From Guyparkeria halophila (lineage in GTDB: Bacteria; Pseudomonadota; Gammaproteobacteria; Halothiobacillales; Halothiobacillaceae), in assembly GCF_034479635.1 (NCBI RefSeq), contig NZ_CP140153.1:379501-443500 (forward strand): 64,000 bases of DNA. The letters are read 5' to 3'. The notes under the pieces are model-generated. The model saw only the letters and a list, made by a program, of their open reading frames with translations, was not told where the DNA came from and did not search any database. Shown here in pieces: positions 17,366-42,487 of this stretch. Position 1 is the first letter of the stretch. Every line of letters starts with the position of its first letter. The position numbers were made by a program, and so were the translations under genes.

Positions 17366-17497
17366 TTCGGCCGACACCGCCGCCGGTGCCGGTTACCGCA
17401 TCGATCGGCTGTGCTAAGTTTTAATTGACCCTGGCGGGCGTTCGACGACATGTCGAGCCCGCCGCCCTTCCATTGCCACACCAGCGAAGGACCCCGG
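17366..17497. other. Intergenic region before the sucrose operon
   Basis: A 132-bp gap with an AT-rich patch (AAGTTTTAATTGACC, about 17415-17430), a plausible promoter area. I see no clear terminator for the upstream operon. Confidence 0.35.
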
Positions 17498-19000: not shown

Positions 19001-19004
19001 CACC

Positions 19005-22912: not shown

Positions 22913-24172
22913 TCATGTGGAGGCAGAGTCCGGCTGCCGTGTGAGACGCGGACTCAACCAGACCCAAGTGATCACTGGCATGGCGAGGGTCAGGATCAGG
23001 CTGCACATCGCCAGCCCACTCATGCCCGTCAATTGTCCGTCCGGTGCCGTCGTGAGTAGCAGACTAGACAGAAACCCCGCCAAGCCCGATCCCACGCCAG
23101 AGGCGGCATTGTGAAGCGACATGAACGCCGCGCGTTGCCGAGGGCGGGGTAGCGAGACCAGCAGGCTGTTGGTCGAACTGGTGCGGGCGGTGCTCCCCGC
23201 CATGAAGAGAGCGAAGAGCAGGTAGAGCGATGCGGTCGGCGGGTGGACGAGGTAGGTCAGGGTGATGGCTATACCAGCCAGGATGGCATTGGCCATGTGG
23301 TTGCTGTGCCGCCAGCCGTGATCGAAGAAGTGGCCCGAGGCCTTGAGCAGGACCAGTGTGCTGATGCCGCCGATCAGGTAGAGCAGCGCCATGTTCTCGC
23401 GCGGAAAACCCAGGTTGAACTGAAAGTGGCTGGCGAAATTGGCCACGATCAGGAAGTGGGCCAAGGTCTGTCCGGCAACGACCGCCAACGCCAGCCCAAT
23501 GGCAGGTTGACGTAGCAGTTTGAACAGTAGACCGCGGTCGATCTTTGCCTCGAGGTGGCCGGTCATTGACGGTATCGTCGCCATCGCCATCACGGTCAAG
23601 GCGACGCCGGCGAGGCCGAATGCCAAGAAGGTGCTTCGCCAACCGAAATGCAGGGACAGCTGCAGGGACAGCGGCACGGCCAGGATGGCTGCCACCGAGA
23701 ACGCGGTGGCAACCAGGGCCATGGCCCGTCCCCGCTGTCGGTCGGGTATTACGTCGACCAACGTGGCCATCATTACCGCGATGGTGGGGCCGTTGATGCA
23801 GCCGGCCAGGATGAATAGTCCCGTCAATTGCGCCGGCTCGCGGGCGAAGCCGCAAGCCAGAAAAATCAGTGCCCTTGCGCCCAGCAGGGAAATCAGCAGT
23901 GGCCGTCGGTCGAATCGGTCCAGCAGTCCGGCGAACAGCACCGATGCCGCCGCCGAGCCGAGCATGGCGCCACCGACCAGATTGCCGATTTGCGCCGGGT
24001 CGAAGCCGATGCCTTCGACCAGATCCGGTCCCAACGGCATGATCATCATCATACTGCCGATGGAAACGACGCTCGCGAGAAACGCGAGGCGGACGATGTT
24101 GTTTGCCGCTCCGGCGGAAAAAAGCATGAAGACGCAAGGAAGATGTCGGTGCCGCGAACGGTAACGGCTCAT
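22913..24172 (-). CDS. MFS transporter, probable siderophore exporter
   Basis: A 419-residue major-facilitator protein with about 12 hydrophobic segments. Between the second and third helices is LLDRFDRRPLLISLLGAR, the family's loop motif, and DVIPDRQRGRAMALVATAF lies further on. It is 25 bases downstream of the TonB receptor gene on the same strand, facing away from the ent genes. Position suggests an EntS-like exporter of the catechol siderophore. Family membership is clear; the substrate is inferred. The start at 24172 lacks a clear ribosome-binding site, and an alternative ATG lies at 24127. Confidence 0.75.
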   Translation of the reverse strand: MSRYRSRHRHLPCVFMLFSAGAANNIVRLAFLASVVSIGSMMMIMPLGPDLVEGIGFDPAQIGNLVGGAMLGSAAASVLFAGLLDRFDRRPLLISLLGARALIFLACGFAREPAQLTGLFILAGCINGPTIAVMMATLVDVIPDRQRGRAMALVATAFSVAAILAVPLSLQLSLHFGWRSTFLAFGLAGVALTVMAMATIPSMTGHLEAKIDRGLLFKLLRQPAIGLALAVVAGQTLAHFLIVANFASHFQFNLGFPRENMALLYLIGGISTLVLLKASGHFFDHGWRHSNHMANAILAGIAITLTYLVHPPTASLYLLFALFMAGSTARTSSTNSLLVSLPRPRQRAAFMSLHNAASGVGSGLAGFLSSLLLTTAPDGQLTGMSGLAMCSLILTLAMPVITWVWLSPRLTRQPDSAST

Positions 24173-24197: not shown

Positions 24198-26132
24198 TCA
24201 GAAGCGGTACGAGCCGCTTACGTAGTAGCTACGTCCCAGCTGGATGACCGGGTAGTTCGGGTTGTCGTCGACCGGACGCTCGTCGGTGGCGTTCTTGATG
24301 CCCAGACGCAGGTCGAGATGCCGGCTGAAGGCGTAGCCGAGGCCGAGATCCACGGTCTGGTAGCTTTCCGTGTATTCCGGATCGCTGCCACGCGGCGCAA
24401 TGTACTGTTCGCCGTGGTGGTTGGCCGCCAGGAAGGAATGAATCTGGCCGGTCATGTCCCAGTCGAGCCGCACGGTCGCCTTGTGATCCGGGCGGGCGGT
24501 CAGCGGGTCGCCGTTGCCATCTTCGGTGTCCAGGTACGTGTAGTTGCCGCTCAGGCCGAGTGTGTCGGTCAGTCGTACGGCGCCTTCGAACTCGACCCCG
24601 TGGATGTCCACCTCACTGATGTTGGTCCACACGCGCTGCGTCTCACCCGGGATGTAAGGCGCGTCGATCATGTCCTCGACGTCGTTCTTGAACAGGGTGA
24701 GTGTGGCATTCCAGCGCTCGCGCTGAACGTCGACGGCCATTTCGTAGTTGGTGCTGGTCTCCGGTTCCAGATCCGGGTCGCCCGTGATGAAGCAGGAACC
24801 GCCGCAACTGACCAACTGGTAGTTCGGGTTGAGTTGGTACGGGCCCGGGGCCTTGAATGCCTGGCTCACGCCGCCCTTCAGGGTGACCGACTCGTTGAGG
24901 CCGTAAACCAGGTAGGCGCGCGGGGTGAAATGCCCGCCGAAGTCCTGGTGATGGTCGTAGCGACCGCCGAGGGTAAGCGCGAGGTCGTTGGTCAGACCGA
25001 TCTCGTCCTGCAGATAGACGGCATAGCGGTCGGTCTCGTCCTCGCCGGTATCGGTGTAGGTGTACTGATCGACGACCTTGTCGCGGCGGGCTTCCACCCC
25101 GGCGGTGATCGCGTGATCGCCGAGCCGGAAGTTCGAGTAGCCATTGATCAGCATGTTCTTTTGCTCGTAACTGCGATCCGCCGGCGGATCGATCACCGCG
25201 AAGGAGCTGTTGTAGTCCTCGATCTCGGCGGTTTCGTACTGGGCCTGAACGGTGGTGTCGCCCCAGCTCCAATACCCTTTGTGTGTCAGGCTGAACAAGT
25301 CCCGATCCACCTCTTGTTCGCGTGTGCGGCCCGGCGCGTAGTAGTCCAGTGGTCGTTCGTCGTTGCTGTGGCGGTAGTCGAAGTCGAGCGACTGATTGTC
25401 GCTCATCATCCAGCTCACGGTGGCGTTGAGATTGCGCGTCTGTTTCTCCTCCAGGCGCGGCACCTGACTGGACTCGTCCGGTTGCCAGGCATTGCGGTTG
25501 TAGGTTTCGGCGTTGACCTTGAAGAACACGTCTTCCGAGAGCGGTCCCCGCGCCGAAACGCCGTTACGAATCTGTTCGCCGCCCGTGTCGTCGGTGGTCT
25601 GGTAGGTGCTGGTCAGGCTGCCGGTCCAGTCGGAAGACGGCCCCTTGGTGATGATGTTGACCACGCCGCCGATCGCGTCCGAGCCGTACAGTGCCGACAT
25701 CGGACCGCGGATGACCTCGACGCGCTCGATGTCGCTCAGCGGTACCGGGGAGGTGTCGAAATCGCTGCCCCGCCACAGGACCTCCCCGGTGGAAATGCGC
25801 TTGCCGTCGATCAGCACCAGTGTGTACTTGGATCCCAGCCCACGAATGCTGACGTCGCTACGGCCGGTACCGTTGCCCGCGCCCTGGTAGACGCCCGGCA
25901 GGCGCTTGAGCACGTCGCTGAGATCGTTGATCGGCATCTCCCGGATGTCTTCCTGCGTCAGCACGGAGATGGATGCCGGTGCCTTGCTTTTCGAGTGCGA
26001 GGTGGTGGTGGCGGTGACCGTCACCGGGCTCAGGATTTCGGCGTCCTGCGCCAGGGCGGGGGAGGCCAGCGCGATCAGGATGCCGGTTGTCAGCGCGCTT
26101 CGGCCGAACGTGGCCGCACGATTGGTTTTCAT
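24198..26132 (-). CDS. TonB-dependent catecholate siderophore receptor
   Basis: A 644-residue outer-membrane receptor. The signal peptide ends near SPALA-QDA, followed by a TonB-box-like SPVTVTAT. The plug contains SVLTQEDIREMPINDLSDVL, DVSIRGLGSKYTLVLIDGKR, IERVEVIRGPMSALYGSDA and IGGVVNIITK. A 22-strand-type barrel follows, ending in SGSYRF with terminal Phe. The sequence looks like the IrgA/CirA/FepA group of catecholate receptors. GGAGGGACC precedes the ATG at 26132, and a Fur-box candidate lies 32 bases upstream. It is divergent from the ent biosynthesis operon. Confidence 0.9.
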   Translation of the reverse strand: MKTNRAATFGRSALTTGILIALASPALAQDAEILSPVTVTATTTSHSKSKAPASISVLTQEDIREMPINDLSDVLKRLPGVYQGAGNGTGRSDVSIRGLGSKYTLVLIDGKRISTGEVLWRGSDFDTSPVPLSDIERVEVIRGPMSALYGSDAIGGVVNIITKGPSSDWTGSLTSTYQTTDDTGGEQIRNGVSARGPLSEDVFFKVNAETYNRNAWQPDESSQVPRLEEKQTRNLNATVSWMMSDNQSLDFDYRHSNDERPLDYYAPGRTREQEVDRDLFSLTHKGYWSWGDTTVQAQYETAEIEDYNSSFAVIDPPADRSYEQKNMLINGYSNFRLGDHAITAGVEARRDKVVDQYTYTDTGEDETDRYAVYLQDEIGLTNDLALTLGGRYDHHQDFGGHFTPRAYLVYGLNESVTLKGGVSQAFKAPGPYQLNPNYQLVSCGGSCFITGDPDLEPETSTNYEMAVDVQRERWNATLTLFKNDVEDMIDAPYIPGETQRVWTNISEVDIHGVEFEGAVRLTDTLGLSGNYTYLDTEDGNGDPLTARPDHKATVRLDWDMTGQIHSFLAANHHGEQYIAPRGSDPEYTESYQTVDLGLGYAFSRHLDLRLGIKNATDERPVDDNPNYPVIQLGRSYYVSGSYRF

Positions 26133-26163
26133 CAGGTCCCTCCTTATTTTTTAACAAATACGA

Positions 26164-26183
26164 ACGGTTATCAGTATCATTCC
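26164..26183 (-). promoter_or_regulatory. Candidate Fur box upstream of the siderophore receptor
   Basis: On the minus strand AATGATACTGATAACC (26166-26181) matches the Fur consensus core AATGATAATCATTATC at 12 of 16 positions. It lies 32 bases before the receptor start, in the region shared with the divergent ent operon. Binding is inferred. Confidence 0.6.
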
Positions 26184-26325
26184 TTATCTCGTTGAGTCAA
26201 CTTCGGCAGGCTCATCGGCCCTGCTCTTTACACTCCCGTCCGGACGGCCCCTTGTCGGCACATGGCCCAGGCGGTGGGCAGTTACATGCCGACCGGAGTG
26301 TAAATAAGAAAGATTCGTACTTGTG

Positions 26326-26354
26326 TTGACGATTGCATGTCGCGTTGGTAACGT
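26326..26354 (+). promoter_or_regulatory. Putative sigma-70 promoter for the ent operon
   Basis: TTGACG (26326-26331), a 17-base spacer and TAACGT (26349-26354) resemble a sigma-70 promoter. The leader to entC would be about 115 bases and contains the small hairpin GTGG-TGAA-CCAC directly before the GGGAGGG ribosome-binding site. The 345-bp region 26133-26477 holds nothing else I can name. Confidence 0.4.
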
Positions 26355-26477
26355 CCATGAGCCTCGGCTAATGAAATCGCGTGAAGCGCGCCTTGACGGG
26401 ATACGCAAGGCCGGAGTCGGACGGTATCCCCGTGCGGGGTGCCGGCTCATGTGGTGAACCACCGGGAGGGCAGTGGG

Positions 26478-27653
26478 ATGCAGACGCTTGAACAAATCAC
26501 GGGGCAGCAGCGCGATTCGGGCTGCCTGGAAACGGCGAGCTTCGAGTTCTCGTCGTCAAGGATGACGCTTCTGGCCAACGGGGTGCGGCGTGTGCTCGCC
26601 GAGCCGGGATGTTGCCCGAGGCAATTGCCGCGCAGCGTGCTCGCCATGCTGGCCGAGCGTTCAAGGATGACGGAGGCCGGATCGATCGTCGTCGGCGCGA
26701 TTCCTTTCGACGATAGAAGTGTCTGCCAGCTTTACGTGCCGGCCTCGTATCGCTTCGTCCGACGCGAACTGCCACGCGATGGAATCGTGCCGGCGGCATC
26801 CGTGATCGCGTCCATGCGCGAGGTCACCGACGAACGACAATACAAATCCGCCGTCTCGGAGGCGCTGTCGCTGATGTCGTCGACGGAGCTGCGCAAGGTG
26901 GTGCTGTCCCGTTCGATCGACATCGAGGCCGACGCGGCGCTGGACGTGCGCGCCATGGTCGATGCTCTGCGCGATCGTAATCCGCAGGCCTACGTCTTCG
27001 CGGTGCCGACGATCGGTGGCGGCACGCTTCTCGGCGCGAGCCCCGAGTTGCTCTTGCGCAAAAAGGACGATGTGGTCGTCAGCAACCCGTTGGCAGGGTC
27101 GCGCCCTCGGCCTGCAAACGCCGCGGACGAGGCGGCTGTCATCGATGAGCTCATGGCCTCCGACAAGGATCGTCGCGAGCATGCCTTGGTGGTCGAGGCG
27201 GTTGCCGCCGGCCTGTCGCCTTTCTGCAGGACGCTCGACGTGCCGGAAGCACCTGAGGTGATCCGTACCTCCTCGATGCTGCATCTGTCGACACGTATCG
27301 AGGGTCGGCTTGCCGATCCCGAGGTGTCGTCGCTCGAGATGGCGCTCGCCCTGCATCCCACGCCGGCTGTCTGTGGGACGCCCTGTGATCTGGCGCGCTC
27401 GGCCATCTCGAGGCTCGAAGGCTATTGCCGCGACCAGTACTGCGGTGTGGTCGGCTGGATGGACGCCCGCGGTGATGGCGAATGGGCCGTGTCGATCCGA
27501 TGCGGACTGCTCAAGCAGAATGGCATGCGCCTCTACGCCGGGGCCGGCATCGTCGATGGCTCGGAGCCCGATAGCGAATGGGACGAGACCACCGCCAAAC
27601 TCAATACCATGCTGGACGTGTTCGGTCTGCGTCCGGCCAACGACGCGAGCTGA
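26478..27653 (+). CDS. entC: Isochorismate synthase EntC
   Basis: A 391-residue chorismate-utilising enzyme that converts chorismate to isochorismate, the first step to 2,3-dihydroxybenzoate. Family motifs include KVVLSRSIDIEAD, GGGTLLGASPELLLRK, NPLAGSRPR, KDRREHALVVEAV, LHPTPAVCGTP and a C-terminal AGAGIVDGSEPDSEWDET. The start at 26478 is preceded by GGGAGGG at 7 bases; a GTG at 26439 in frame has no such signal. It opens the siderophore operon; entE starts 11 bases after its stop. Confidence 0.92.
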   Translation: MQTLEQITGQQRDSGCLETASFEFSSSRMTLLANGVRRVLAEPGCCPRQLPRSVLAMLAERSRMTEAGSIVVGAIPFDDRSVCQLYVPASYRFVRRELPRDGIVPAASVIASMREVTDERQYKSAVSEALSLMSSTELRKVVLSRSIDIEADAALDVRAMVDALRDRNPQAYVFAVPTIGGGTLLGASPELLLRKKDDVVVSNPLAGSRPRPANAADEAAVIDELMASDKDRREHALVVEAVAAGLSPFCRTLDVPEAPEVIRTSSMLHLSTRIEGRLADPEVSSLEMALALHPTPAVCGTPCDLARSAISRLEGYCRDQYCGVVGWMDARGDGEWAVSIRCGLLKQNGMRLYAGAGIVDGSEPDSEWDETTAKLNTMLDVFGLRPANDAS

Positions 27654-27663
27654 GGGGCAGGTT

Positions 27664-29316
27664 ATGAGTGTCGCCTTCACCTGCTGGCCGGAAGCGCTTG
27701 CCCGACGGTATCGAGACGCTGGCTACTGGCGCGGTCAACCGCTGACGGACATTCTCGACGCCCACGATCCGCGCGAAGCGGATCGTGACGCGATTGTCTG
27801 CGCCGAGAGACGGTTCAGCTACGACCAGTTGATCCGGCTTTCGCGTCGACTGGCCGCCTCGCTGGTCGCCGCCGGTCTGCGTCCCGGTCAGACCGTGCTG
27901 GTGCAGATGCCCAATTGCGCCGAGTTCTACCTGCTGTTCTTCGCCTTGCTGCGATGCGGTGCGGTGCCGGTCAACGCGCTTTTCAGTCACAACCGTCGCG
28001 AGTTGCTTGCCTTCGCCGAACAGATCGCCCCGGCGCTGCTGGTGCTTACGGATGATCACCCGGCGATGCGCGGGCGGCAGGGAACGGCATTGGTCGACGA
28101 ACTACGTCGATACGCGTCTGGCGAGGCTCGGCTGTTGCATTTCGGCGACCGCGCCCTGCCGGTCGAGAAGGTGCTCACCGATTTTCGTTGGGAAGATGGC
28201 GAGCCGCTCGACGAGTCGGAGTGCCTGAACGGGTTCTCGCCGAATCCGCCGGACGAGGTCGCCTTTTTCCAGCTATCCGGCGGCAGCACCGGCCTTCCGA
28301 AGCTCATCCCTCGGACTCACGACGACTACGGTTACAGCGTGCGCGCCAGCGCCGAGTTATGCCGCTTGAACGTCGACACCGTCTTTCTCTGCGCGCTGCC
28401 GGCGCCGCACAACTACAGCCTCAGCTCGCCCGGCACGCTCGGCATATTGCACGCCGGCGGCGTCGTGGTGATGGCGCGCGACCCCGGGCCGGCCACCTGC
28501 TTCGAGTTGATCGACCGTCACGCCGTGACCATGGCGGCCCTGGTGCCGCCGGCGCTGAGCCTGTGGTTGGAGGCCGCCGACTCGGTGCGGCCGCCCAGCC
28601 TCGGTAGTCTTAGCTTGCTGCAGGTCGGCGGCGCCCGGCTCAGCCCGGCCCTGGCCGAGCAGGTCCCGACGCGTCTGGGCTGCCGGCTGCAACAGGTCTT
28701 CGGGATGGCCGAGGGTCTGGTGAACTACACCCGCCTTGACGACGATCGCTGGTACGTGGAGAACACCCAGGGCCGGCCGCTCAGCCCAGCCGACGAGATC
28801 CGGGTCCGCGACGCCGAGGGCCGGGATGTGCCGCCCGGCGAGGTTGGCACGCTCTGGGCGCGCGGGCCCTACACCTTCCGCGGTTACTACCGCGCCGAGG
28901 CGCACAACGCCGTCGCCTTCGACGTCGAGGGGTTCTATTGCTCCGGTGATCTGGTTCGCCGGACCGATAGCGGTTACCTGGTGGTGGTCGGCCGGGAGAA
29001 GGATCAGATCAACCGCGGCGGCGAAAAGATCGATGCCCTCGAGATCGAGGACCTCCTGCTGGGGCACCCGGCCATCCGACAGGCGGCGTTGGTCGCGATG
29101 CCCGACGAGGTGTTGGGCGAGCGCAGCTGCGCGTTCCTGGTCGCCGATGCCCGGCTACGGGCCGTCGACGTGCGCCGTTTCCTACGACGAGAGGGCGTCG
29201 CCGACTTCAAGCTGCCCGATCGGGTGGAATTCATCGACGACCTGCCCCGAACTGCCGTGGGAAAAATCGACAAAGCCGCGCTGCGCCGACGGATTTGCAG
29301 CGCGGCGGCGTGCTAG
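27664..29316 (+). CDS. entE: 2,3-dihydroxybenzoate-AMP ligase EntE
   Basis: A 550-residue adenylate-forming enzyme that activates 2,3-dihydroxybenzoate and loads it onto the aryl-carrier domain of EntB. The ATP loop is LSGGSTGLPKLIPRTHDDY. Aryl-acid-ligase features follow: LPAPHNYSLSSPGTLG, QVFGMAEGLVNYTRLDD (the region containing the core A5 motif) and REKDQINRGGEKID (A8). The catalytic Lys lies in TAVGKIDKAALR. The size and order beside entC and entB match enterobactin, vibriobactin and bacillibactin loci. The start is taken at the ATG of 27664. Confidence 0.94.
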   Translation: MSVAFTCWPEALARRYRDAGYWRGQPLTDILDAHDPREADRDAIVCAERRFSYDQLIRLSRRLAASLVAAGLRPGQTVLVQMPNCAEFYLLFFALLRCGAVPVNALFSHNRRELLAFAEQIAPALLVLTDDHPAMRGRQGTALVDELRRYASGEARLLHFGDRALPVEKVLTDFRWEDGEPLDESECLNGFSPNPPDEVAFFQLSGGSTGLPKLIPRTHDDYGYSVRASAELCRLNVDTVFLCALPAPHNYSLSSPGTLGILHAGGVVVMARDPGPATCFELIDRHAVTMAALVPPALSLWLEAADSVRPPSLGSLSLLQVGGARLSPALAEQVPTRLGCRLQQVFGMAEGLVNYTRLDDDRWYVENTQGRPLSPADEIRVRDAEGRDVPPGEVGTLWARGPYTFRGYYRAEAHNAVAFDVEGFYCSGDLVRRTDSGYLVVVGREKDQINRGGEKIDALEIEDLLLGHPAIRQAALVAMPDEVLGERSCAFLVADARLRAVDVRRFLRREGVADFKLPDRVEFIDDLPRTAVGKIDKAALRRRICSAAAC

Positions 29317-29378
29317 GGAAGTTCTGCACGAACGCGCACCCATCCGATTCACGACACCTTGAGGAGAACGTACTGGCC

Positions 29379-30266
29379 ATGAGCATAGGCAACCTTACTT
29401 CCTACCCACTGCCCAGCGCATCGGAGCTGCCCGAGTCGCGTGTCGCCTGGCCCTTTCAACCGGAGCGTGCCGTGCTGTTGATTCACGACATGCAGGAATA
29501 CTTTGTCGCGTTCTACGGCACAGACAGCCCGCTGATCGAGCAGGTCGTCCGCAAGCTGGTCGAACTCAAGGCCCGCTGCAAGGCATTGGGGATTCCCGTG
29601 GTGTACACCGCTCAGCCGACCGAACAGTCGGATGAGGACCGGGCGTTGCTCAACGACATGTGGGGGCGGGGCCTGCCCGCGCGCCCCGAACGGTATCCCG
29701 TCGTCGGCCCGCTCTCGCCCGAGATCGACGATACGGTTCTGACCAAGTGGCGCTACAGCGCCTTCCATCGTTCGCCGCTGGCGGATCTAATGCGCGACTG
29801 GGGGCGGGATCAGCTGCTGATCGGCGGCATCTACGGACATATCGGCGTCATGCAGACGGCGGTCGATGCCTTCATGCGTGACGTCAAACCGTTCGTAGTC
29901 GCCGACGCGACCGCCGACTTCTCGCGCGAGGATCACCTGACGGCGTTGCGAATCGTGGCCCGGACCGCCGGGCGCGTGCTGACCCTCGAAGATGTGGTCG
30001 CGGCCGCAGCCGACCCGGGCTGGACCCGAGCTGGCTTGCGCGGCCGGGTCCGGGGCATGTTGCTTGATGCCGACGAGTTGCGCGACGACGACAACCTAGT
30101 CGATTTCGGCCTCGATTCGGTTGCCATGCTGGGCCTGGCCGAGGAATTACAGCGCGACGGCATTCGCGTCGATTTCGCCACCCTGGCCGCCAACCCCTCC
30201 ATCGACGAGTGGTGGCGCCTGATCGATGCCGCCTCGACGCCGGCCACGAGCGAAATCCATGAGTGA
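29379..30266 (+). CDS. entB: Isochorismatase / aryl carrier protein EntB
   Basis: A 295-residue two-domain protein. The isochorismatase domain (to about residue 205) has AVLLIHDMQEYFVAFYG, VLTKWRYSAFHRSPL and IGGIYGHIGVMQTAVDAF. The C-terminal aryl-carrier domain has DNLVDFGLDSVAMLGLAEEL with the phosphopantetheine Ser. It makes 2,3-dihydro-2,3-dihydroxybenzoate and then carries the activated aryl acid to EntF. The ATG at 29379 lies 12 bases after GAGGAG. A CTG at 29373 in the same frame would sit at better spacing, so the exact start is slightly uncertain. Confidence 0.93.
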   Translation: MSIGNLTSYPLPSASELPESRVAWPFQPERAVLLIHDMQEYFVAFYGTDSPLIEQVVRKLVELKARCKALGIPVVYTAQPTEQSDEDRALLNDMWGRGLPARPERYPVVGPLSPEIDDTVLTKWRYSAFHRSPLADLMRDWGRDQLLIGGIYGHIGVMQTAVDAFMRDVKPFVVADATADFSREDHLTALRIVARTAGRVLTLEDVVAAAADPGWTRAGLRGRVRGMLLDADELRDDDNLVDFGLDSVAMLGLAEELQRDGIRVDFATLAANPSIDEWWRLIDAASTPATSEIHE

Positions 30267-31059
30267 TCGCCGACCGGACGCCGCGGATTCAGCCGACGAG
30301 GACGAGTGGCGCGGGCGTCGCGTGTGGGTCACCGGGGCCGGACGAGGCATCGGTCGGGCCGTGGCGCAGCGCTTTCAGGCACTGGGTTGCGCGGTGGTCG
30401 GTTTCGACCGCCATTTCGATGAGGCGGACGAGCCGGACGAACCGGGTCTGCGTCGGGTGACGCTCGACGTGTCGAACTCGGCGGCAGTCGATGCGACGAG
30501 CCGCAAACTGATCGAGCAGGCGGCCGGGGTCGATGTGTTGGTGAATGTAGCGGGCGTGCTTCGCCCTGGGCCACTGGAATCGATGGCGGACGCCGACTGG
30601 CGGCAGACCTTCGACGTCAATGTGACGGGGGCCTTCCACCTGTTGCGCGCCGTTTCCCCGGTTTTCCGGCGACAGGGCCACGGCTGCGTGGTCGCCGTCT
30701 CGTCCAACGCGGCCCGGGTGCCTCGGGTCGGCATGGCCGCCTATGGCGCCTCGAAGGCCGCCCTGACCAGCCTCACCCTCAGCACCGGGCTCGAGCTGGC
30801 CTCCAGCAACGTCCGTTGCAACGTCGTCTCGCCTGGTTCGACCCGCACGCCGATGCTCGAGTCACTCTGGGACGACGGGTTGGGTGAACGGACCACCATC
30901 GCCGGTGACCCCGAGCGGTACCGGCTCGGCATCCCCCTCGGTCGGTTGGGGCAGCCGGAAGACGTCGTCGAGGCGGTCGTCTTTCTGGCCTCGTCGCGTG
31001 CGAGACACATCACGCTGCAGGATCTGGTCGTCGATGGCGGCGCCACGCTTGGCGCCTGA
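30259..31059 (+). CDS. entA: 2,3-dihydro-2,3-dihydroxybenzoate dehydrogenase EntA
   Basis: A 266-residue short-chain dehydrogenase that oxidises 2,3-dihydro-2,3-dihydroxybenzoate to 2,3-dihydroxybenzoate with NAD. The cofactor motif is WVTGAGRGIGRAVA, the Asn motif is NVAGVLRPG and the catalytic Ser and YxxxK lie in VAVSSNAARVPRVGMAAYGA and YGASKAAL. The ATG at 30259 overlaps the end of entB by 8 bases. This completes the three-step DHB pathway from chorismate. Confidence 0.92.
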   Translation: MSDRRPDAADSADEDEWRGRRVWVTGAGRGIGRAVAQRFQALGCAVVGFDRHFDEADEPDEPGLRRVTLDVSNSAAVDATSRKLIEQAAGVDVLVNVAGVLRPGPLESMADADWRQTFDVNVTGAFHLLRAVSPVFRRQGHGCVVAVSSNAARVPRVGMAAYGASKAALTSLTLSTGLELASSNVRCNVVSPGSTRTPMLESLWDDGLGERTTIAGDPERYRLGIPLGRLGQPEDVVEAVVFLASSRARHITLQDLVVDGGATLGA

Positions 31060-31093
31060 CGTCGCACCGAGGTAACACGAAGGAGAAACCATC

Positions 31094-35121
<4,028 letters not shown>

Positions 35122-35125
<4 letters not shown>

Positions 35126-36189
35126 ACCGACGGCGATTTATCCAGTTGGCCGGCGCGTCGGCCACCTCGCTTTCCCTTGATCGATTGATCGCCGCAGAAG
35201 AGCGGCCCCCGATCGACGCATCGGCCAGCATGAGCAACATGACGTGGCGAAAGTCACCGGATTTTCTCGATCAGGCCTTGTCAGGCGGTCAGGTGGTGGG
35301 CCTGGGCGAGGCCCACTGGTATCCGGGCCTGATCCGTTACCAGCATGAGCTTGTCTGCGCGCCGGAGTTGGCCGGACGGCTGACCGACCTGGTGCTGGAA
35401 TGCGGAAACCGCCGTCATCAGGCCCTGCTGGACGCGTATCTGGACGGTGCCGAAGCATTCGACGGGGCGCCGATCGACGAGCAACGCTTGCTGGCAATTC
35501 GGCTTGACTCGCTTTCGTTCCCGGCCTGGATGTCGCCATCCCACGGCCAGCTGTTCGCCCGACTTCGGGCAACAAATCTGGCGCGTCCGGCGGGTGAGCG
35601 TATTCGAGTGCACCTGGCCGAACCGGCCTTCGATTGGGGGGACCTTGCCGGGGAAGACGACTGGTGGGCGATCAACCGCCAGCGTGACGAGGCATTCTTC
35701 CGATACCTCGAGGCCCGCTTCACACCGGCCGGTGGCCGTGGCGTAGTGGTGCTCTGCGGGGCTCGCCATCTGCTCAAGGGCGATGGTGGCGATGCTGGCC
35801 CGGGGATGCCGCGTGAGCCGCTGGGTCGGCTCATGGCGCACCACCAGCCCGGGCGGTTGTTGAGCATCTGGCCCAGTACGTCGGGTGACGAAAGCGAGGT
35901 CGCCGCGCTTGTGGGCAGGCCACCTGATCGGTGGCCCGCGATTGCCTCTGTCGCCGACCGGCCTCAGTCGGCGGGGCGCGTTCTGCCTCCACCGTTCGAC
36001 GACGTGGGCGAGGTGGCGCCGTCCCGGCACGTCGACGCCTGCCTCTACGCCGGCCCGCAGCAGCGCTCGATGCAATGCGATCCCGTCATCGGTCGAGGCG
36101 AATGGCCCGAGCGGTTGCGGGCGCGCGCTCACGTCCTGCCTGCCCGCTTGCGCGAGGCGGTCAGTCGCCTGCTTGAGAGTCTCGGGTGA
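35122..36189 (+). CDS. Tat-exported ChaN/EreA-like protein embedded in the siderophore operon
   Basis: A 355-residue protein of uncertain family. It starts with a twin-arginine-type signal (MNRRRFIQLAGASATSLSL). The mature part shows VVGLGEAHWYPGLIRYQHEL, LVLECGNRRHQALLDAYLDG and VVVLCGARHLLKG. These spaced GxGExH, E and H elements resemble the ChaN/EreA/Tiki superfamily, whose members bind heme or hydrolyse esters and peptides. Its start overlaps the entF stop (ATGA) and its end overlaps entD (GTGA), so it is coupled to siderophore synthesis. A periplasmic esterase or maturation role for the siderophore is possible but unproven. I know of no standard ent gene like it. Confidence 0.65.
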
Positions 36190-37034
36190 GTCCCGGTTCG
36201 CGCCATCGCCGGCCATCCCGTGGCGCTCGCCAGTCGACGCCGAGTCCGATCCTCGAGTCCCCGACACGATTCCAGCTTGGTGACCTGCCGCTGGTGCTGC
36301 AACCGTTCGCATGGTCGGGAGTCGACGAGCGATGTCTCTCGGCCGCGCATGTCAGGCTGGGGCTGGACGAACCTGCTTGGCCGCCGCGAGTGGTCCTTCG
36401 GCGGCGGGTGGAATTTCTTGCCGGGCGACGCGCAGCGGCGCTCGCGTTGCTCGATCAGGGCGCGCGGAGAACCGGCGTGGGTGTCGGCCCGACGGGCGAG
36501 CCTCGTTGGCCGTCAGGCTGGGTCGGAAGCATTTCTCACGTTCACGACGACCGAAAGGCGCGCGGACTGGCGGTCGCCGTCACGCGGCGGGCTGATCGGG
36601 AAGGAGAGCCGGTCGTGGGCGTGGGGGTCGATGTCGAGAACTTTGCCGATGCCGATCGCGCACGAGCCATGGAACGACTGGTGATCCGCGGTGAGGAACA
36701 CCTCGCATTGCCCGCGCTTGGTCTCGATCGTCGTGCCGCGCTCAGCGTGATCTTTTCGGCCAAGGAAAGCTTCTTCAAGGCCGCTTTCCCCGTGGTCTGC
36801 CGTTTCTTCGACTTTGATGCCCTCGCATTGGTCGGCGCGGAGATGGCCGGGCAGCGATTGATATTTCGTCTTCGCCGGAGCCTTGCCGCCGGGCTGGGCG
36901 CCGGCCGGAAGATCGAGGTCGAGTGGCGTCGGTTACCTGGTCGAGTGATAACCGCAACCGTTCTCCCAGCAAACCCGGTCCAGCGTGCGGGGGCGAACGG
37001 TCGAGGCCCTGCACAACCCCGTTGTTTGGGCTAG
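36186..37034 (+). CDS. entD: 4'-phosphopantetheinyl transferase EntD
   Basis: A 282-residue EntD/Sfp-type enzyme that would prime the carrier domains of EntB and EntF with phosphopantetheine from coenzyme A. Motifs are GSISHVHDD, VVGVGVDVENF (metal-binding Asp) and VIFSAKESFFKAAFP (the KExxxK element). The start is a GTG overlapping the preceding stop by 4 bases. The first 25 residues are rich in Arg, Ser and Pro and outside the domain, so initiation might be later. It is the last gene of the ent operon. Confidence 0.9.
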   Translation: MSPGSRHRRPSRGARQSTPSPILESPTRFQLGDLPLVLQPFAWSGVDERCLSAAHVRLGLDEPAWPPRVVLRRRVEFLAGRRAAALALLDQGARRTGVGVGPTGEPRWPSGWVGSISHVHDDRKARGLAVAVTRRADREGEPVVGVGVDVENFADADRARAMERLVIRGEEHLALPALGLDRRAALSVIFSAKESFFKAAFPVVCRFFDFDALALVGAEMAGQRLIFRLRRSLAAGLGAGRKIEVEWRRLPGRVITATVLPANPVQRAGANGRGPAQPRCLG

Positions 37035-37094
37035 ATTCGTTCCTGTATCGCAATCTCGCATCGTCAAGATGGCAAAACGAAAGGAGTGACTTTC

Positions 37095-37595
37095 ATGTGT
37101 GCAGCCAAAGCAAAGAAGAGTGACAAGAAGACCCTAGAGAACCTGCAGAAGGCTTTGTCCATGGAGTTGACGGCCACCCACCAGTACATGTTGCACGCCC
37201 ATGTGCTCGAAGACTGGGGGCTGGACCGACTGTCGAAGAAGATGCACGGTGAGGTGCAGGAAGAGTTGGGTCATGCCAGCAAGTTCATCGACCGCATCTT
37301 GTTCCTCGATGGCGACCCGGTGGTCACCGAGGCCAAGGCCGCGCGTCGTTCCAGTTCACTGGGCGACATGTTCAAGGCGGATCTCAAGGAGGAGCTCGCC
37401 TCGATCCAGTTTTACGGTGAGGCCGCGCTCGAGGCACGCAACGAAGGGGACGTCGGCACGGTGCATATTTTCGAGGAGATTCTGATCGACGAGGAGGGCC
37501 ATGCCGACTGGCTCAAGCGTCAACTCGAGCTTATCGAGCGCATGGGTGAGCCGAACTACATCCTCGCCTACCACACCCCGGAAACCGGCGCGTAG
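37095..37595 (+). CDS. bfr: Bacterioferritin
   Basis: A 166-residue ferritin-like protein. Diiron ligands are visible in ALSMELTATHQYMLHAHVL, QEELGHASKFIDRIL, DLKEELASIQFYGEA and LIDEEGHADWLKRQLELI, in the spacing of bacterioferritin. It should oxidise and store iron as a 24-mer. The ATG at 37095 is used with AAAGGAG about 9 bases upstream. The gene lies between siderophore synthesis and uptake operons, fitting an iron-handling island, with its own short upstream gap of 60 bases after entD. Confidence 0.88.
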   Translation: MCAAKAKKSDKKTLENLQKALSMELTATHQYMLHAHVLEDWGLDRLSKKMHGEVQEELGHASKFIDRILFLDGDPVVTEAKAARRSSSLGDMFKADLKEELASIQFYGEAALEARNEGDVGTVHIFEEILIDEEGHADWLKRQLELIERMGEPNYILAYHTPETGA

Positions 37596-37640
37596 TGTCA
37601 AGCCGCCGCGCCATTGCATGACTGGCGCGAAGCGCAAGAG

Positions 37641-37668
37641 ACCCCGCGTGATGCCCGCGGGGTTTTTT
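37641..37668 (+). terminator. Rho-independent terminator after bacterioferritin
   Basis: CCCCGCG (37642-37648) pairs with CGCGGGG (37656-37662), followed by six T (37663-37668). It lies between the convergent bfr and DUF2218 genes. Confidence 0.9.
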
Positions 37669-37682
37669 CGTTGGAGTTGGGG

Positions 37683-37976
37683 TCAGTGTGACTGGGGCTC
37701 TTCCCATGTCACGGTGAGAGGGTTGCGCTTGGTGAACATCCAGACGTGGCGTTCGATCACGTCCATGATCTTCTCCAACGAGGCGCTGTCGTCTGCGCGG
37801 CAGTGAAAGTGCAATGCTGTGTCGCCGGCCTCGAGTCGGCATTCGCCGAACGGGAAACGCGCGTGCCCGGTGGTCTCGTCGTGCTCGACCGATATCTTCT
37901 TCGCGAAATGCCGGCAGAGTCGATCGAGGTAGGTCGAGGCCAGGGGGGTTTCGGTGGTGCCGGAAAGGGTGATCAT
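37683..37976 (-). CDS. DUF2218 protein
   Basis: A 97-residue protein matching DUF2218: TYLDRLCRHFAKKISVEHDE, HARFPFGECRLEAGDTALHF and LEKIMDVIERHVWMFTKR. It overlaps the ATPase gene by 4 bases and is last in the siderophore ABC importer operon. DUF2218 genes often accompany siderophore uptake or reductase genes. The molecular role is not known; intracellular handling of the imported iron complex is a reasonable guess from position. It is a soluble small protein without signal peptide. Confidence 0.85.
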   Translation of the reverse strand: MITLSGTTETPLASTYLDRLCRHFAKKISVEHDETTGHARFPFGECRLEAGDTALHFHCRADDSASLEKIMDVIERHVWMFTKRNPLTVTWEEPQSH

Positions 37977-38788
37977 CGGGTGTTTGCCTCATGTGTCGAG
38001 AGGGTTTCGGATGGCCGGGCAATCCGGTCGGCCTGCACGATCGGATAACCGTGCGAGCAGCGCTCGACACGGCCTTCGATCCCGTAGGCGCGGGCAAGGA
38101 GTTCGGCATCGAGTACCTCCAATGGATCGCCAGCGGCGAGCAATGCGCCGTCTTTCAGTACCACGAGACGGTCGCAGAAACGCAGCGCGAGATTGAGATC
38201 GTGTATGGCCACCAGCGCGATCCCGCCGGCGTCGGTCGTGTGGCGGACGCGTTCGAGCACCTGGATCTGCCAGCGCAGGTCCAGTGCGCTGGTGGGTTCG
38301 TCGAGCAGCAGCAACCGCGGCTGCCGCGCCAGCACCTGAGCGAGACCCAGCATCTGCCGCTGACCGCCGGAGAGTTCGCCCAGCGGCCGGAATGCCAGCG
38401 CCCGCAGACCGAGATCATCAAAGACGCGTTCCACGCGGTGCTCGATTCGATCGCGGGGCATCGAGGGATCGGCGGTCCTCAACGCGGCCATGAGGCTTTC
38501 ATAGGCGACCAGTGAGCTCGCCTGGGGGAGTGTTTGGGGTAGATAGCCCACGCGCCGGAGGCGTTCGGCGGGCGGCAGTGAGCCTAGATCTTCTCCGTCG
38601 AGCCGCACTTCGCCCTGCATCGGCAGGAGTCCGGACACCGCCCGCATGAAGGTGGATTTGCCGGCGGCGTTCGCACCCACCACGGCGACCAGATCCCCGT
38701 TGCGGAAGGTCGGCAGGTCCAGGCGGTCAAGTATCCGTCGGCGGCGGTAGCCCGCCGTCAGGCCGCGCACGTCGAGTGATCCGCTCAT
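37973..38788 (-). CDS. Iron-siderophore ABC transporter ATPase (FepC/FecE-like)
   Basis: A 271-residue ABC ATPase with Walker A VGANAAGKSTFM, Q-loop VGYLPQTLP, signature LSGGQRQMLGLAQ, Walker B LLLLDEPTSALDL and switch VAIHDLNLAL. These forms are typical of FepC/FecE/BtuD. It powers import of the ferric siderophore through the upstream permease. It overlaps both neighbouring genes by 4 bases (permease before, DUF2218 after). Confidence 0.9.
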   Translation of the reverse strand: MSGSLDVRGLTAGYRRRRILDRLDLPTFRNGDLVAVVGANAAGKSTFMRAVSGLLPMQGEVRLDGEDLGSLPPAERLRRVGYLPQTLPQASSLVAYESLMAALRTADPSMPRDRIEHRVERVFDDLGLRALAFRPLGELSGGQRQMLGLAQVLARQPRLLLLDEPTSALDLRWQIQVLERVRHTTDAGGIALVAIHDLNLALRFCDRLVVLKDGALLAAGDPLEVLDAELLARAYGIEGRVERCSHGYPIVQADRIARPSETLSTHEANTR

Positions 38789-39864
38789 CGTGGTCGCCTC
38801 TTTCCGAGCACCAGCATCATGAATAACGGGACGCCCACCAGCGCGGTGACGATGCCGATAGGCAGTACCACGCCGGGAACGAGCGTCTTGCTGAGCATGG
38901 ATGCCAGGGAAAGCATCAAGGCGCCGGCCAGCGCGCTGCCCGGCAGATAGAAACGGTGATCCTCGCCCAGCAGCAGCCGGGCGATGTGCGGGCCGACCAG
39001 ACCGACAAAGCCGATGGTGCCGACGAAGGAGATCGCCGTCCCTGCGAGCAGACTGACGCGCAGAACCACCGCCAGCCGCAGCCGCTCGACCGGCACGCCA
39101 AGGCTGCGTGCCTGGTCCTCGCCGCTGCGCAGGGCGCTCATTGACCAGACGTTTCGCAGGGCGAAGACCATCGTGACCGCGAGAATCACCGCCAGGATGG
39201 CGACTGTCTCCCAGGCCGCGCGCGCGAGGCTGCCCATCGTCCAGAACACGATCTGCTGGAGCGCGTCGCTGTCCGCGAGGAACTGGAGCAGCCAGACCAG
39301 GGCTTCGAAGGAGAACAGCAGGGCAATGCCGAAAAGCACCACGGTCTCCACGCCGGCGCCATGCAGCCGCGCCAAGGCGAGGATCAGCAGGGTCGCGCCC
39401 CCGGCACTGAGGAAGGCGAGGAGCGTGATCGCGTAGGTCTCGCCGAGTCCGAACAGGTCGAGACCGAGCACAATTGCCAGCGCCGCGCCGAAGGTGGCCG
39501 CCGACGACACGCCTAGGGTGAACGGACTGGCCAATGGATTGTTGAGCGCCGTCTGCATCTCGGCGCCGGCGAGCCCGAGTGCGGCCCCGACGAGCACGGC
39601 CATCAGGGCGTAGGGCAGGCGGATATCCCAGAGAATCACTGCCTCACCCCGCTCGAGCTGGTCGGGCTGGAACAGCCCCAGGAGCAAGCGGCTGAGGGGA
39701 AACGTCGACGGGCCTGTCAGGATGTCGAGCACCAGTGCAACGAGTGCTGCAACGGCGAGTCCGATCAGGAGCAGCCGACGTCGTCGCGTGAAGCGTCGGT
39801 AGTCGCCGGCCAGCGAGGGTCGGCGAGGCACCGGTGTCGAGTCCGCATCGGGATGGGGGCTCAT
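38785..39864 (-). CDS. FecCD-family siderophore ABC permease
   Basis: A 359-residue inner-membrane permease with about ten hydrophobic helices and the family stretches LPYALMAVLVGAALGLAGAE, NPLASPFTLGVSSAATFGA, GTIGFVGLVGPHIARLLLG and the C-terminal LPIGIVTALVGVPLFMMLV. Only one permease is present, so it probably forms a homodimer as in BtuC-type systems, unlike the FepD/FepG pair of enterobactin uptake in E. coli. It overlaps the binding-protein and ATPase genes by 4 bases each. Confidence 0.9.
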   Translation of the reverse strand: MSPHPDADSTPVPRRPSLAGDYRRFTRRRRLLLIGLAVAALVALVLDILTGPSTFPLSRLLLGLFQPDQLERGEAVILWDIRLPYALMAVLVGAALGLAGAEMQTALNNPLASPFTLGVSSAATFGAALAIVLGLDLFGLGETYAITLLAFLSAGGATLLILALARLHGAGVETVVLFGIALLFSFEALVWLLQFLADSDALQQIVFWTMGSLARAAWETVAILAVILAVTMVFALRNVWSMSALRSGEDQARSLGVPVERLRLAVVLRVSLLAGTAISFVGTIGFVGLVGPHIARLLLGEDHRFYLPGSALAGALMLSLASMLSKTLVPGVVLPIGIVTALVGVPLFMMLVLGKRRPR

Positions 39865-41006
39865 CGTTGCTTGATCCAGTAGGTGCCGGTGGTTTCATAG
39901 GGCAAGAAGCGCGCGCGCAAGCGATCGAATGTCTCGGCGGGTTCCAGATCGCGGAATGCTTCGGGGTGCAGCCACTTGGCGAAGGCCTGCAGTGCCACCA
40001 CGTTGAACGGCGAGTTGTAGAAGTGATGCCAGATGGCATGAGCGCGGCCATTCTTCACCGCCTCGAATTCACGGATCCCGCGTCGTTGCAGGGTCACGTC
40101 GAGGGATTGCCGCGCCTGGGCCTCGGACACGCCGGCGCCCAGCACGATATGCCCGTTGTGCGCTTTGTCGTTCTTGGATCCGATCGCGGTCCCGATGTAG
40201 ATATCCGGCTGGTGGGACAGCAGGTATTCGAGACTGACTAGGCCGTGGCTCCCGGGGAGCAGGTCGGTGGCGATATTGTTGCCGCCAGCCCGTTCGACCA
40301 GCAGGCCCAGCATGCCGTTGGACATGGTCTCGCAGCATTCCTCGCGCAGGCCGACCCGGCTCTCCAGGAACACGTCGGGTTGCGTCTCGACCTCGGCAAG
40401 GCCGTCATCCACACGGGCCATCTCGCGTTGATAGGCGGAAATGAAGGCCTCCGCTTCCTCCTGTCTGCCCAGTACCTCACCCATCAGGCGCATGCTCGGC
40501 ACGGTGTTGGTCAGCGGATCATGGCGGAAGTCGATGAAGACGACCGTCACGCCGGCCTGTTCGAGTCGCTCGATCACCGGTCGATCCCCGGGTGACGGAC
40601 CGTGCCCCTCCAGCCCGAAGAAGGCCACGTCCGGCGCCATGGAAAGGGCGCGTTCGACGCTGAAGCTCGACGGATTGAGGCGGCCGACGCGTGGAATCTC
40701 GTCGACGGCCGGGAAGGCTGCCCTGAAGCGCGTGTAACCGGCCGGGTCGAGACGCTTGAATTCGCCCTGCATGCCGACGATCCGATCGATCGCCTCCTCG
40801 CCCTCGAGAATGGAGGTGGGTACAAGGAAACGGCCCTCACCGAGCAGGACCCGGTCGACCTTGCCGGGCAGATCGATTTCGCGGCCCGCCAGGTCGGTCG
40901 GTTCGGCCAAGACGGTGACGCCCCAGATGAGGGCCGCCAGGCCCAGCAGCCCTGCACGGGTGAGTTTGCCGGCGGGGCGACGGGTGGAGCTTGGGTGACG
41001 GTACAT
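39861..41006 (-). CDS. Periplasmic siderophore-binding protein
   Basis: A 381-residue exported protein of the FepB/BtuF-type. The signal peptide has LLGLAALIWGVTVLAEP; the Arg-rich N terminus before it is about 15 residues. The mature part has a helical-backbone substrate-binding layout with PRVGRLNPSSFSVERALSMA, VTVVFIDFRHDP and NGMLGLLVERAGGNNIATDL. It should deliver the ferric siderophore to the permease it overlaps. A Fur-box candidate lies 74 bases upstream. The receptor, this operon and the ent genes probably share iron regulation. Confidence 0.88.
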   Translation of the reverse strand: MYRHPSSTRRPAGKLTRAGLLGLAALIWGVTVLAEPTDLAGREIDLPGKVDRVLLGEGRFLVPTSILEGEEAIDRIVGMQGEFKRLDPAGYTRFRAAFPAVDEIPRVGRLNPSSFSVERALSMAPDVAFFGLEGHGPSPGDRPVIERLEQAGVTVVFIDFRHDPLTNTVPSMRLMGEVLGRQEEAEAFISAYQREMARVDDGLAEVETQPDVFLESRVGLREECCETMSNGMLGLLVERAGGNNIATDLLPGSHGLVSLEYLLSHQPDIYIGTAIGSKNDKAHNGHIVLGAGVSEAQARQSLDVTLQRRGIREFEAVKNGRAHAIWHHFYNSPFNVVALQAFAKWLHPEAFRDLEPAETFDRLRARFLPYETTGTYWIKQR

Positions 41007-41079
41007 GTGAGTGCCTTTATTCGTTCACGGTGGACGTAAGGGCTCGCCAACGCCTCCATTGGATCAGAGAACACTAACA

Positions 41080-41098
41080 TTAATGCGAATCGTTATTG
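41080..41098 (-). promoter_or_regulatory. Candidate Fur box upstream of the importer operon
   Basis: AATGCGAATCGTTATT (41082-41097) matches the Fur core AATGATAATCATTATC at 12 of 16 positions, 74 bases before the binding-protein start. It is in an AT-rich patch of an otherwise GC-rich region. Confidence 0.65.
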
Positions 41099-41136: not shown

Positions 41137-41772
41137 TCAGTCGGCCAACAGAAACGCCAGGCTACGTTGCGCCACTTGCGGCGATAGCAGCAGTCCGAAG
41201 TGACTGACGGGCACGCACTCATGTGTGGTCAGGGCGGTGGTGCGTGTCTCGTTGACCGCCACGGTGCCGTCGCTGGGTGACTCGAGTGCGCCGCGCAGCA
41301 GTCGGCCGGGACCGAACGGGCGGGTGCCGGCGAGCATCAGTGTGTTGGGCGTGGCCCACTCGGGTGGGGTGCCGGCCAGGCCGTCGACAAGGCTGCCATC
41401 AAGCAACCATCGCCCCAGTCGGGTCTCGGCCATTCGGCGAGCCACCCCGCTGCCGGCTAGTGGCGAGCCCAGCAGCACCACGCGCGTTGCCGTTGAGCGC
41501 GCCTCCGGGTGCCGAGCGAACAGGTGGGCCAGCACCAGGCCGCCAAGGCTGTGGGCGACGAAGTGGCGGGGGCGGTCGGGTTGGTCTGCCAGCCAATGGG
41601 CGAGCCGTTCGGCGTTCTCGGCCGGCGTTGAGCGCGTCGGGTAGTCGAAGCGGACCGGGTCGAAGCCAGCGCGTTTGAGGGAATGGGCGAGTGGCCACAT
41701 GGCCCAGCGTCCCATCCACAGCCCGTGCAGCAGAACCACGCGCGGCCCACGTGCGATCGGCCCGTTTGCCAC
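41137..41772 (-). CDS. Alpha/beta hydrolase
   Basis: A predicted 211-residue alpha/beta hydrolase. The oxyanion region is VVLLHGLWMGRWAMWPLA, the nucleophile elbow is VAHSLGGLVLAH, and a C-terminal His lies in VPVSHFGLLLSP. The ORF is open to 41865 inside the preceding gene. I choose a GTG at 41772, 10 bases after that gene's stop, because the extra N terminus looks like shadow sequence. The substrate is unknown. A role as siderophore esterase is conceivable given the neighbours, but it follows the VIT-like gene rather than the ABC operon. Confidence 0.7.
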   Translation of the reverse strand: MANGPIARGPRVVLLHGLWMGRWAMWPLAHSLKRAGFDPVRFDYPTRSTPAENAERLAHWLADQPDRPRHFVAHSLGGLVLAHLFARHPEARSTATRVVLLGSPLAGSGVARRMAETRLGRWLLDGSLVDGLAGTPPEWATPNTLMLAGTRPFGPGRLLRGALESPSDGTVAVNETRTTALTTHECVPVSHFGLLLSPQVAQRSLAFLLAD

Positions 41773-41782
41773 CCGTGTCGGC

Positions 41783-42487
41783 TCAGGAAAGACCCGAGAG
41801 CAGTTGGCCGACAAGCGCGGTGACGCCCATGGTGGCCGCCCCCCAGAAGGCGGTGCGGAAACCACCCAGCATCATCGAGGCCCCGCCCGTCCGCGAGCTC
41901 AAGGCGCCGAGCACGGCCAGTACCAGCAGGGTGAGCGGTACGGTGAGCATCATCATGCGCTCGACGGGTGCGGTCAGCGCCACCAGCAGGGGGAGGGCCG
42001 CACCGGCAGCAAACGATACCGCCAGCGGGATGGCGGCGAGCAGGGGGCGCATTTCGGTGAGACGGTGCAGGCCCATTTCCTCCCGGGCATGGGCGCCGAG
42101 GGCGTCGTGGGCCATCATCTGCCGGGCGACCCGATCCGCCGTCTCGGGATCGACGCCGCGCTCGACGTAGATGTCGCGCAATTCGCCCAGCTCGTGCTCG
42201 AAGTTGATTTCCAGCTCGCGCGCCTCCATGTCCAAGTCGGCCTTTTCCGTGTCCTGACGCAGGCGCAGGGCGACGTGCTGCCCGGCGGCCAGGGCCAATG
42301 CCCCGGCGACCAGGGCGATCACCGCGGCGTGCAGTACCTCGCCGGGCGGCAGACCGGAGGCCAGTAGACCGGCGATGAGGCTGGACAGGGCAACCAGCCC
42401 GGCGATTGCGCCCAGCACGGCCGCCCGGACGCTACGGTAGCGGTTGAGGCGGTGGTGTTCCCCGTGAAGGTCGGGCCGCTTGGTCAT
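41783..42487 (-). CDS. VIT1/CCC1-family iron/manganese transporter
   Basis: A 234-residue membrane protein of the VIT1/CCC1 family. A first pair of helices (residues 20-75) is followed by the family's charged Glu-rich segment MEARELEINFEHELGELRDI and VERGVDPETADRVARQMMAH, then three C-terminal helices. Family members move iron or manganese out of the cytoplasm. It lies next to siderophore uptake and bacterioferritin genes, which suggests protection against excess iron. It is divergent from relA over a 185-bp gap. Confidence 0.82.
   Translation of the reverse strand: MTKRPDLHGEHHRLNRYRSVRAAVLGAIAGLVALSSLIAGLLASGLPPGEVLHAAVIALVAGALALAAGQHVALRLRQDTEKADLDMEARELEINFEHELGELRDIYVERGVDPETADRVARQMMAHDALGAHAREEMGLHRLTEMRPLLAAIPLAVSFAAGAALPLLVALTAPVERMMMLTVPLTLLVLAVLGALSSRTGGASMMLGGFRTAFWGAATMGVTALVGQLLSGLS

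Follow-up and report, generated by a model that had tools for sequence, protein, structure and literature searches.

A putative Ere-fold hydrolase encoded directly behind entF in Guyparkeria halophila and Halomonadaceae, a candidate enterobactin esterase

RESULTS

The siderophore locus and the position of gene X

The window analysed here (the whole stretch of 64,000 nucleotides from Guyparkeria halophila, contig NZ_CP140153.1, positions 379,501 to 443,500) carries a locus complete for a catechol siderophore: entCEBA, a four-domain (C-A-T-TE) EntF with a serine code, a gene that we call X, and a gene for a phosphopantetheinyl transferase (PPTase). On the plus strand lie entC (isochorismate synthase, 26439–27653), entE (DHB-AMP ligase, ORF 27310–29316), entB (isochorismatase with an aryl carrier domain, 29295–30266), entA (2,3-dihydro-2,3-dihydroxybenzoate dehydrogenase, 30226–31059), the NRPS gene entF (31094–35125), gene X (35122–36189) and the ORF of an EntD-like 4'-phosphopantetheinyl transferase (36186–37034), the true start of which is uncertain. 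Since the EntE domain begins at about codon 121, the true entE start must lie later than the start of the ORF. EntF has the HHxxxDG, GGHS and GWSIGG motifs and the TE histidine, and the anchor positions of its A domain, like those of all X-linked EntFs, carry the residues of the serine-activating E. coli EntF. On the minus strand are a CirA/FepA-like TonB-dependent catecholate receptor (24198–26132), an MFS exporter (22913–24172; the NCBIfam model that fits it best, MxcK for myxochelin export, stays below cut-off) and a siderophore ABC importer (37973–41006) made up of a FepB-like binding protein, an FecCD permease and an ATPase, the permease sharing 59% identity with its counterpart in a Halomonadaceae entF operon.

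Since this is the only one of 27 genomes searched within its family to have X or a strong EntE match, the siderophore locus was probably acquired horizontally, and positions 24198–41006 are likely to represent an acquired island; the neighbouring hydrolase gene (41137–41865) is, by contrast, genus-wide. Two AT-rich, Fur-box-like intergenic sites (26160–26178 and 41079–41097, each 13/19 to consensus) precede the receptor/ent operon and the FepB-like operon, respectively, their number and score being at chance level. A ferritin/bacterioferritin-like gene (37086–37595) directly follows the entD-like gene on the same strand, and a sucrose metabolism block (neutral invertase, a sucrose-phosphate synthase-like fusion and sucrose-phosphatase) occupies 17450–22081.

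Gene X is present as described in an initial annotation made from the sequence alone, with ORF, overlap and motifs all confirmed: it encodes 355 aa (35122–36189, plus strand), its start ATG (35122–35124) overlaps the entF stop TGA (35123–35125) as ATGA, and its translation contains GLGEAHWY, LECGNRRHQ and CGARHLLKG. The same annotation had X translationally coupled to entD as well; the GTGA at 36186–36189, through which the end of X overlaps the PPTase ORF, is indeed there, but because 69 residues of that ORF stand before its recognised 4PPT_N domain, coupling at this end is possible and not established. The N-terminus of X (MNRRRFIQLAGASATSLSL) fits a twin-arginine motif followed by uncharged residues, a rule that matches 1.1% of random N-termini drawn from the window's proteins; the Pfam TAT_signal model (PF10518) gave no match on window X, and a lipobox was not found in it. 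This leader-like extension (residues 1–36, 35122–35229, plus strand; RRxFI motif, as RRRFI) is missing in all entF-linked relatives, and a start at the alternative in-frame ATG at 35230 (M37) would remove the leader and leave X with an N-terminus as long as theirs. Residues 1–38 have a pLDDT below 50 in the AlphaFold model, and the codon-position GC of the 36-residue extension is compatible with coding, if less marked than in the body of X. Judged from these sequence features, the Tat-like leader appears to be peculiar to the window copy, and the start of X is uncertain.

Fold and predicted active site of X

The initial annotation placed X in the ChaN/EreA/Tiki superfamily, and the structural comparisons bear this out. 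Window X and a Kushneria X were modelled with AlphaFold (pLDDT 80 and 88, respectively); each model contains the parallel beta-sheet core with the common Ere/ChaN/Tiki superfamily fold, and for both the best PDB matches are BcR135 and EreC, of the Ere family, with HopBA1, ChaN and RRSP behind; the TM-scores of 0.4–0.6 mean that these matches concern the core only. Profile comparison of X with four Ere-family proteins gave 92.7% (E 4e-7). A sequence search of the PDB with X returned no significant match, and the gathering cut-off of the erythromycin esterase family (PF05139) was not reached, with no match on window X at E up to 1 and weak matches in 2 of the 16 entF-linked members (best E 0.17). 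On window X the ChaN family (PF04187) scored 22.3 bits against a gathering cut-off of 27.7, and no match was found to PF11806 or PF00756, the families of Fes, IroD, IroE and PfeE.

Seven residues (G62, E63, H65, E93, R188, G213 and H216) show no variation among the 16 entF-linked members. The catalytic residues of EreC, which hydrolyses lactones independently of metal, are E47, H50, E78, R261 and H289 (PMC7979712). The His–Glu spacing is 28 residues in X and in EreC and its Ere relatives, and the Arg–His spacing is likewise 28 in both X and EreC; R188 is matched to EreC R261 by spacing and local sequence only. E63, H65, E93, R188 and H216 are thus the X counterparts of the EreC set, and E63, H65, E93 and H216 form a 2His/2Glu set (ExH, a Glu 28 residues on, and GxxH) of the kind that RRSP also requires (PMC6254334). 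We regard the assignment of X as an Ere-type hydrolase as well supported.

ChaN gives X its weak Pfam match and also turns up in the list of fold matches, so X might instead be a non-catalytic, ChaN-like protein that binds heme or a ferric catechol and carries iron or siderophore. We consider this improbable, given that all the Ere/RRSP enzyme residues are invariant in the X members, that the Ere family fits better in fold and well in sequence profile, and that the relatives of X are leaderless whereas ChaN is a lipoprotein.

X relatives stand behind entF and probably share its history

With window X alone as the query, the genomes of 84,980 species gave no match and a 369-genome sample of the class gave one distant match; relatives of X have to be found with a profile, not a single sequence. 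A profile search of 250 Halomonadaceae genomes recovered 15 relatives, 27–31% identical to window X, and a profile scan of the 84,980 species' genomes allowed most of these 15 to be assigned to a genus (Kushneria, Phytohalomonas, Larsenimonas, Halotalea or Carnimonas). X lies directly behind an EntF-like NRPS gene in 15/15 Halomonadaceae relatives (X-bearing genomes of one genus not being independent counts), a placement in a second family that exceeds what chance would produce, its start falling, in the cases read, at the entF stop or a few bases away. An EntE match above 600 bits occurs in 26 of the 250 genomes, all 15 X genomes among them, and none of the remaining 224 has X; in seven other EntE-positive genomes lacking X a distant entF could have been missed. 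Halotalea and Carnimonas have the order entF-X-entC-entE-entB-entA; in Kushneria entF and X stand by themselves, with dnaB on one side and a photolyase-related gene on the other. Hence the entF-X-entD neighbourhood that the initial annotation proposed to survey is not a conserved arrangement, entF-X being the part that is kept (15/15).

The trees agree with this linkage. The X-linked EntFs and the window EntF form one clade (99/99), which leaves out E. coli EntF and the EntFs of Halomonadaceae without X. In the X tree, window X falls with the entF-linked Xs (94/94) and separately from the members outside siderophore loci; it is divergent, however, with a long branch and a poorly aligned C-terminal part, and because of the long branch its exact place is weakened. 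The simplest reading of these sequence trees is that entF and X have passed down as a pair.

The product of one such system is established. Kushneria konosiri X49T, in which entF and entE lie about 540 kb apart, is among the X-bearing genomes, and a 2026 study found that K. konosiri makes enterobactin together with its linear dimer and trimer, its entF and the dhb operon being separated by more than 500 kb (PMC13251462). X therefore adjoins an entF tied experimentally to enterobactin. The neighbour of this entF, which is X, goes unmentioned in the main text of that study (PMC13251462), and our literature search found no paper on an Ere-like gene in an enterobactin locus.

Homologues away from siderophore genes, which the initial annotation had taken as a sign against its proposal, do occur among distant superfamily members (Oceanobacter kriegii, Kofleriaceae, Sphingomonadales and others, several of which look exported) and not in the close clade. 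In Oceanobacter kriegii two overlapping relatives of X lie in tandem (L044:9860–11939), the first of them exported and lipoprotein-like, outside any siderophore locus. A homologue on an Agrobacterium vitis plasmid lies near AraC, MFS and PPTase genes, within 5 kb of the PPTase gene and an ABC efflux set (L004:8073–12870), and not in an ent cluster; we class it as a distant relative. The distant members might be read as a sign that X is a passenger without a part in siderophore metabolism, but 15/15 placements behind entF at 27–31% identity, with invariant active-site residues, lead us to give this the least credence of the explanations weighed here. That X is part of a siderophore system, as first proposed, is upheld by the 15/15 placements, the co-occurrence with EntE and the joint EntF and X clades, and its membership of the enterobactin system is strongly supported.

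X was also proposed to be exported. No leader or signal peptide was found in the 15 entF-linked relatives, which start at the entF stop, so that the twin-arginine leader is not kept in the family and export (0/15 relatives with a leader) would apply at most to the window copy. Because no relative has a leader, X appears to be ancestrally cytosolic, and the window copy may be either the form with the Tat-like leader or the leaderless form from M37.

Inventory of other esterases

The Fes domain (PF11806) is absent from the window genome and from all 15 X-bearing genomes. No PF00756 esterase above cut-off was found in the window genome, its single PF00756 match, below cut-off, being an S33-type hydrolase; the genome has no other recognisable enterobactin esterase. 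A search for a SIP reductase there found none, and its FhuF, considered and set aside, adjoins an FhuB-like gene and probably serves another siderophore. An alpha/beta hydrolase gene (41137–41865) beside the FepB-like gene was rejected as the siderophore esterase of this genome. It adjoins the ABC importer on the same strand, and X would then be otherwise occupied, but 9/10 further genomes of the genus carry it and entE is missing from all of them, as expected of a housekeeping gene, and we regard its involvement as very improbable.

In each of four Halomonadaceae genomes that lack X and have a serine-type entF, the locus holds a cytosolic-looking esterase: Fes just upstream of entF in G783 and, in G770, G791 and G881, a PF00756 protein that has no leader and is encoded in the transport operon. 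The X-bearing loci have neither. The E. coli-type fes of G783 (L137:6042–11467) stands directly before an entF whose product, unlike its relatives, groups with E. coli EntF.

Inspected X-bearing genomes (at least one per genus) do have an exported PF00756 esterase distinct from X, its gene adjoining that of a TonB-dependent receptor or a FepB-like gene, leader peptides having been judged by eye from the sequences; the arrangement is that of PfeE, which adjoins pfeA (PMC8001512). In a Kushneria genome (L124:5987–9344) the gene behind that of a TonB-dependent receptor encodes a PF00756 esterase whose leader is clearly twin-arginine-like (RRRLLKGAGAMALL), and receptor and esterase are probably a PfeA–PfeE-like pair. 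Kushneria, Halotalea and Carnimonas have an additional leaderless PF00756 protein. We therefore rejected the idea that X replaces all PF00756 esterases, exported ones being found in X-bearing genomes. Because the X-bearing relatives own a periplasmic IroE/PfeE-like esterase, X would parallel Fes/IroD and not IroE, much as other bacteria have one esterase in the cytosol and another in the periplasm. A point against an esterase role of X is that an exported PF00756 esterase occurs in every X-bearing genus, so that cleavage of ferric enterobactin may already take place in the periplasm. Of the earlier suggestion that X replaces Fes/IroE, a predicted stand-in for Fes is supported by the absence of PF11806 and the displacement pattern, and replacement of IroE is not supported outside this genome.

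DISCUSSION

The computed fold and active-site residues, the linkage to serine-type entF, the co-inheritance and the absence of Fes are best explained by X being a non-orthologous enterobactin ester hydrolase, a reading for and against which we consider the chances about evenly divided. We infer its substrate, reaction and place of action as follows. X would most likely open the serine ester bonds of enterobactin or of its iron complex by a mechanism following that proposed for EreC: H65, held by E63, would activate a water molecule that E93 and H216 keep in position, and R188 would stabilise the oxyanion. X would thereby do the work of Fes and IroD, to both of which it is unrelated, and a reductase would then take iron from the weaker linear catechols. 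Ancestrally X would be cytosolic and made together with EntF, and the window copy, having gained a Tat-like leader, may act in the periplasm as do IroE, PfeE and Cee. More tentatively, and with rather more doubt than belief, we suggest that X represents a second, independently arisen way of opening the enterobactin ring: an Ere-fold, metal-independent esterase family born beside entF, cytosolic in the majority of its hosts and Tat-retargeted here as the sole ferric-enterobactin esterase.

X travels with entF and not with uptake genes, and the isolated entF-X pair of Kushneria also fits a role in synthesis. The main alternative is that X serves the EntF line as a hydrolase for editing or off-loading, acting, in parallel to EntH, on (DHB-Ser)n esters that are stalled or wrong or on carriers that are misloaded. 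It is always adjacent to entF, usually overlapping the entF stop; no uptake gene consistently adjoins it, even the Kushneria pair standing alone; and a search with E. coli EntH as the query brought up no entH relative around entE in the X-bearing genomes covered. Yet entF of the E. coli type needs no partner of this kind, the known substrates of Ere-fold enzymes are lactones and peptides and not carrier thioesters, and a Tat leader in one member would part X from EntF, so that we hold an editing role to be possible but unlikely. EntH, a proofreading thioesterase, resembles X as an accessory hydrolase of enterobactin synthesis, but it is located after entA and acts on carrier thioesters. EntH has a hot-dog fold.

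Considering that Ere enzymes are resistance enzymes and that Ere and Tiki homologues also occur in peptide-product clusters (PMC8939145), X could conceivably hydrolyse some other ester or peptide, such as a foreign siderophore-antibiotic or a macrolide, and serve protection and not iron. The fixed link of X to a serine-specific entF in several genera, together with their co-inheritance, makes this distinctly improbable.

Among known systems, EreA/EreC and the BcR135 group (PF05139) resemble X in fold, in the GExxH/Glu/GxxH layout and in the five EreC catalytic residues, each of which has a counterpart in X, and EreC opens a macrolactone by means of a metal-independent, His-activated water; X differs in being mostly below Pfam detection, in having a core of about 300 aa as against about 400, and in being linked to entF and not to macrolides. 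ChaN (PF04187), a Campylobacter heme-binding lipoprotein, shares the superfamily fold and is the best, if sub-threshold, Pfam match, but X is below its gathering cut-off and the X relatives are leaderless. The trilactone esterases Fes, IroD, IroE, PfeE and Cee share with X the proposed reaction and the genomic setting (fes-ybdZ-entF are adjacent in E. coli), whereas X matches neither PF11806 nor PF00756 and has other catalytic machinery. Fes and the PF00756 esterases have an alpha/beta-hydrolase fold.

Finally, the enterobactin esterases that we found described in the literature (Fes, IroD, IroE, PfeE and Cee) are all of the Fes/PF00756 type. If X does prove to be an Ere-fold enterobactin esterase, it would represent convergent evolution of iron release from a chelator that ranks with the strongest known in nature and would link a macrolide-resistance fold to siderophore metabolism. 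X would then also be a marker gene of enterobactin production in halophiles in which, as in Kushneria, entF is split from the dhb operon.
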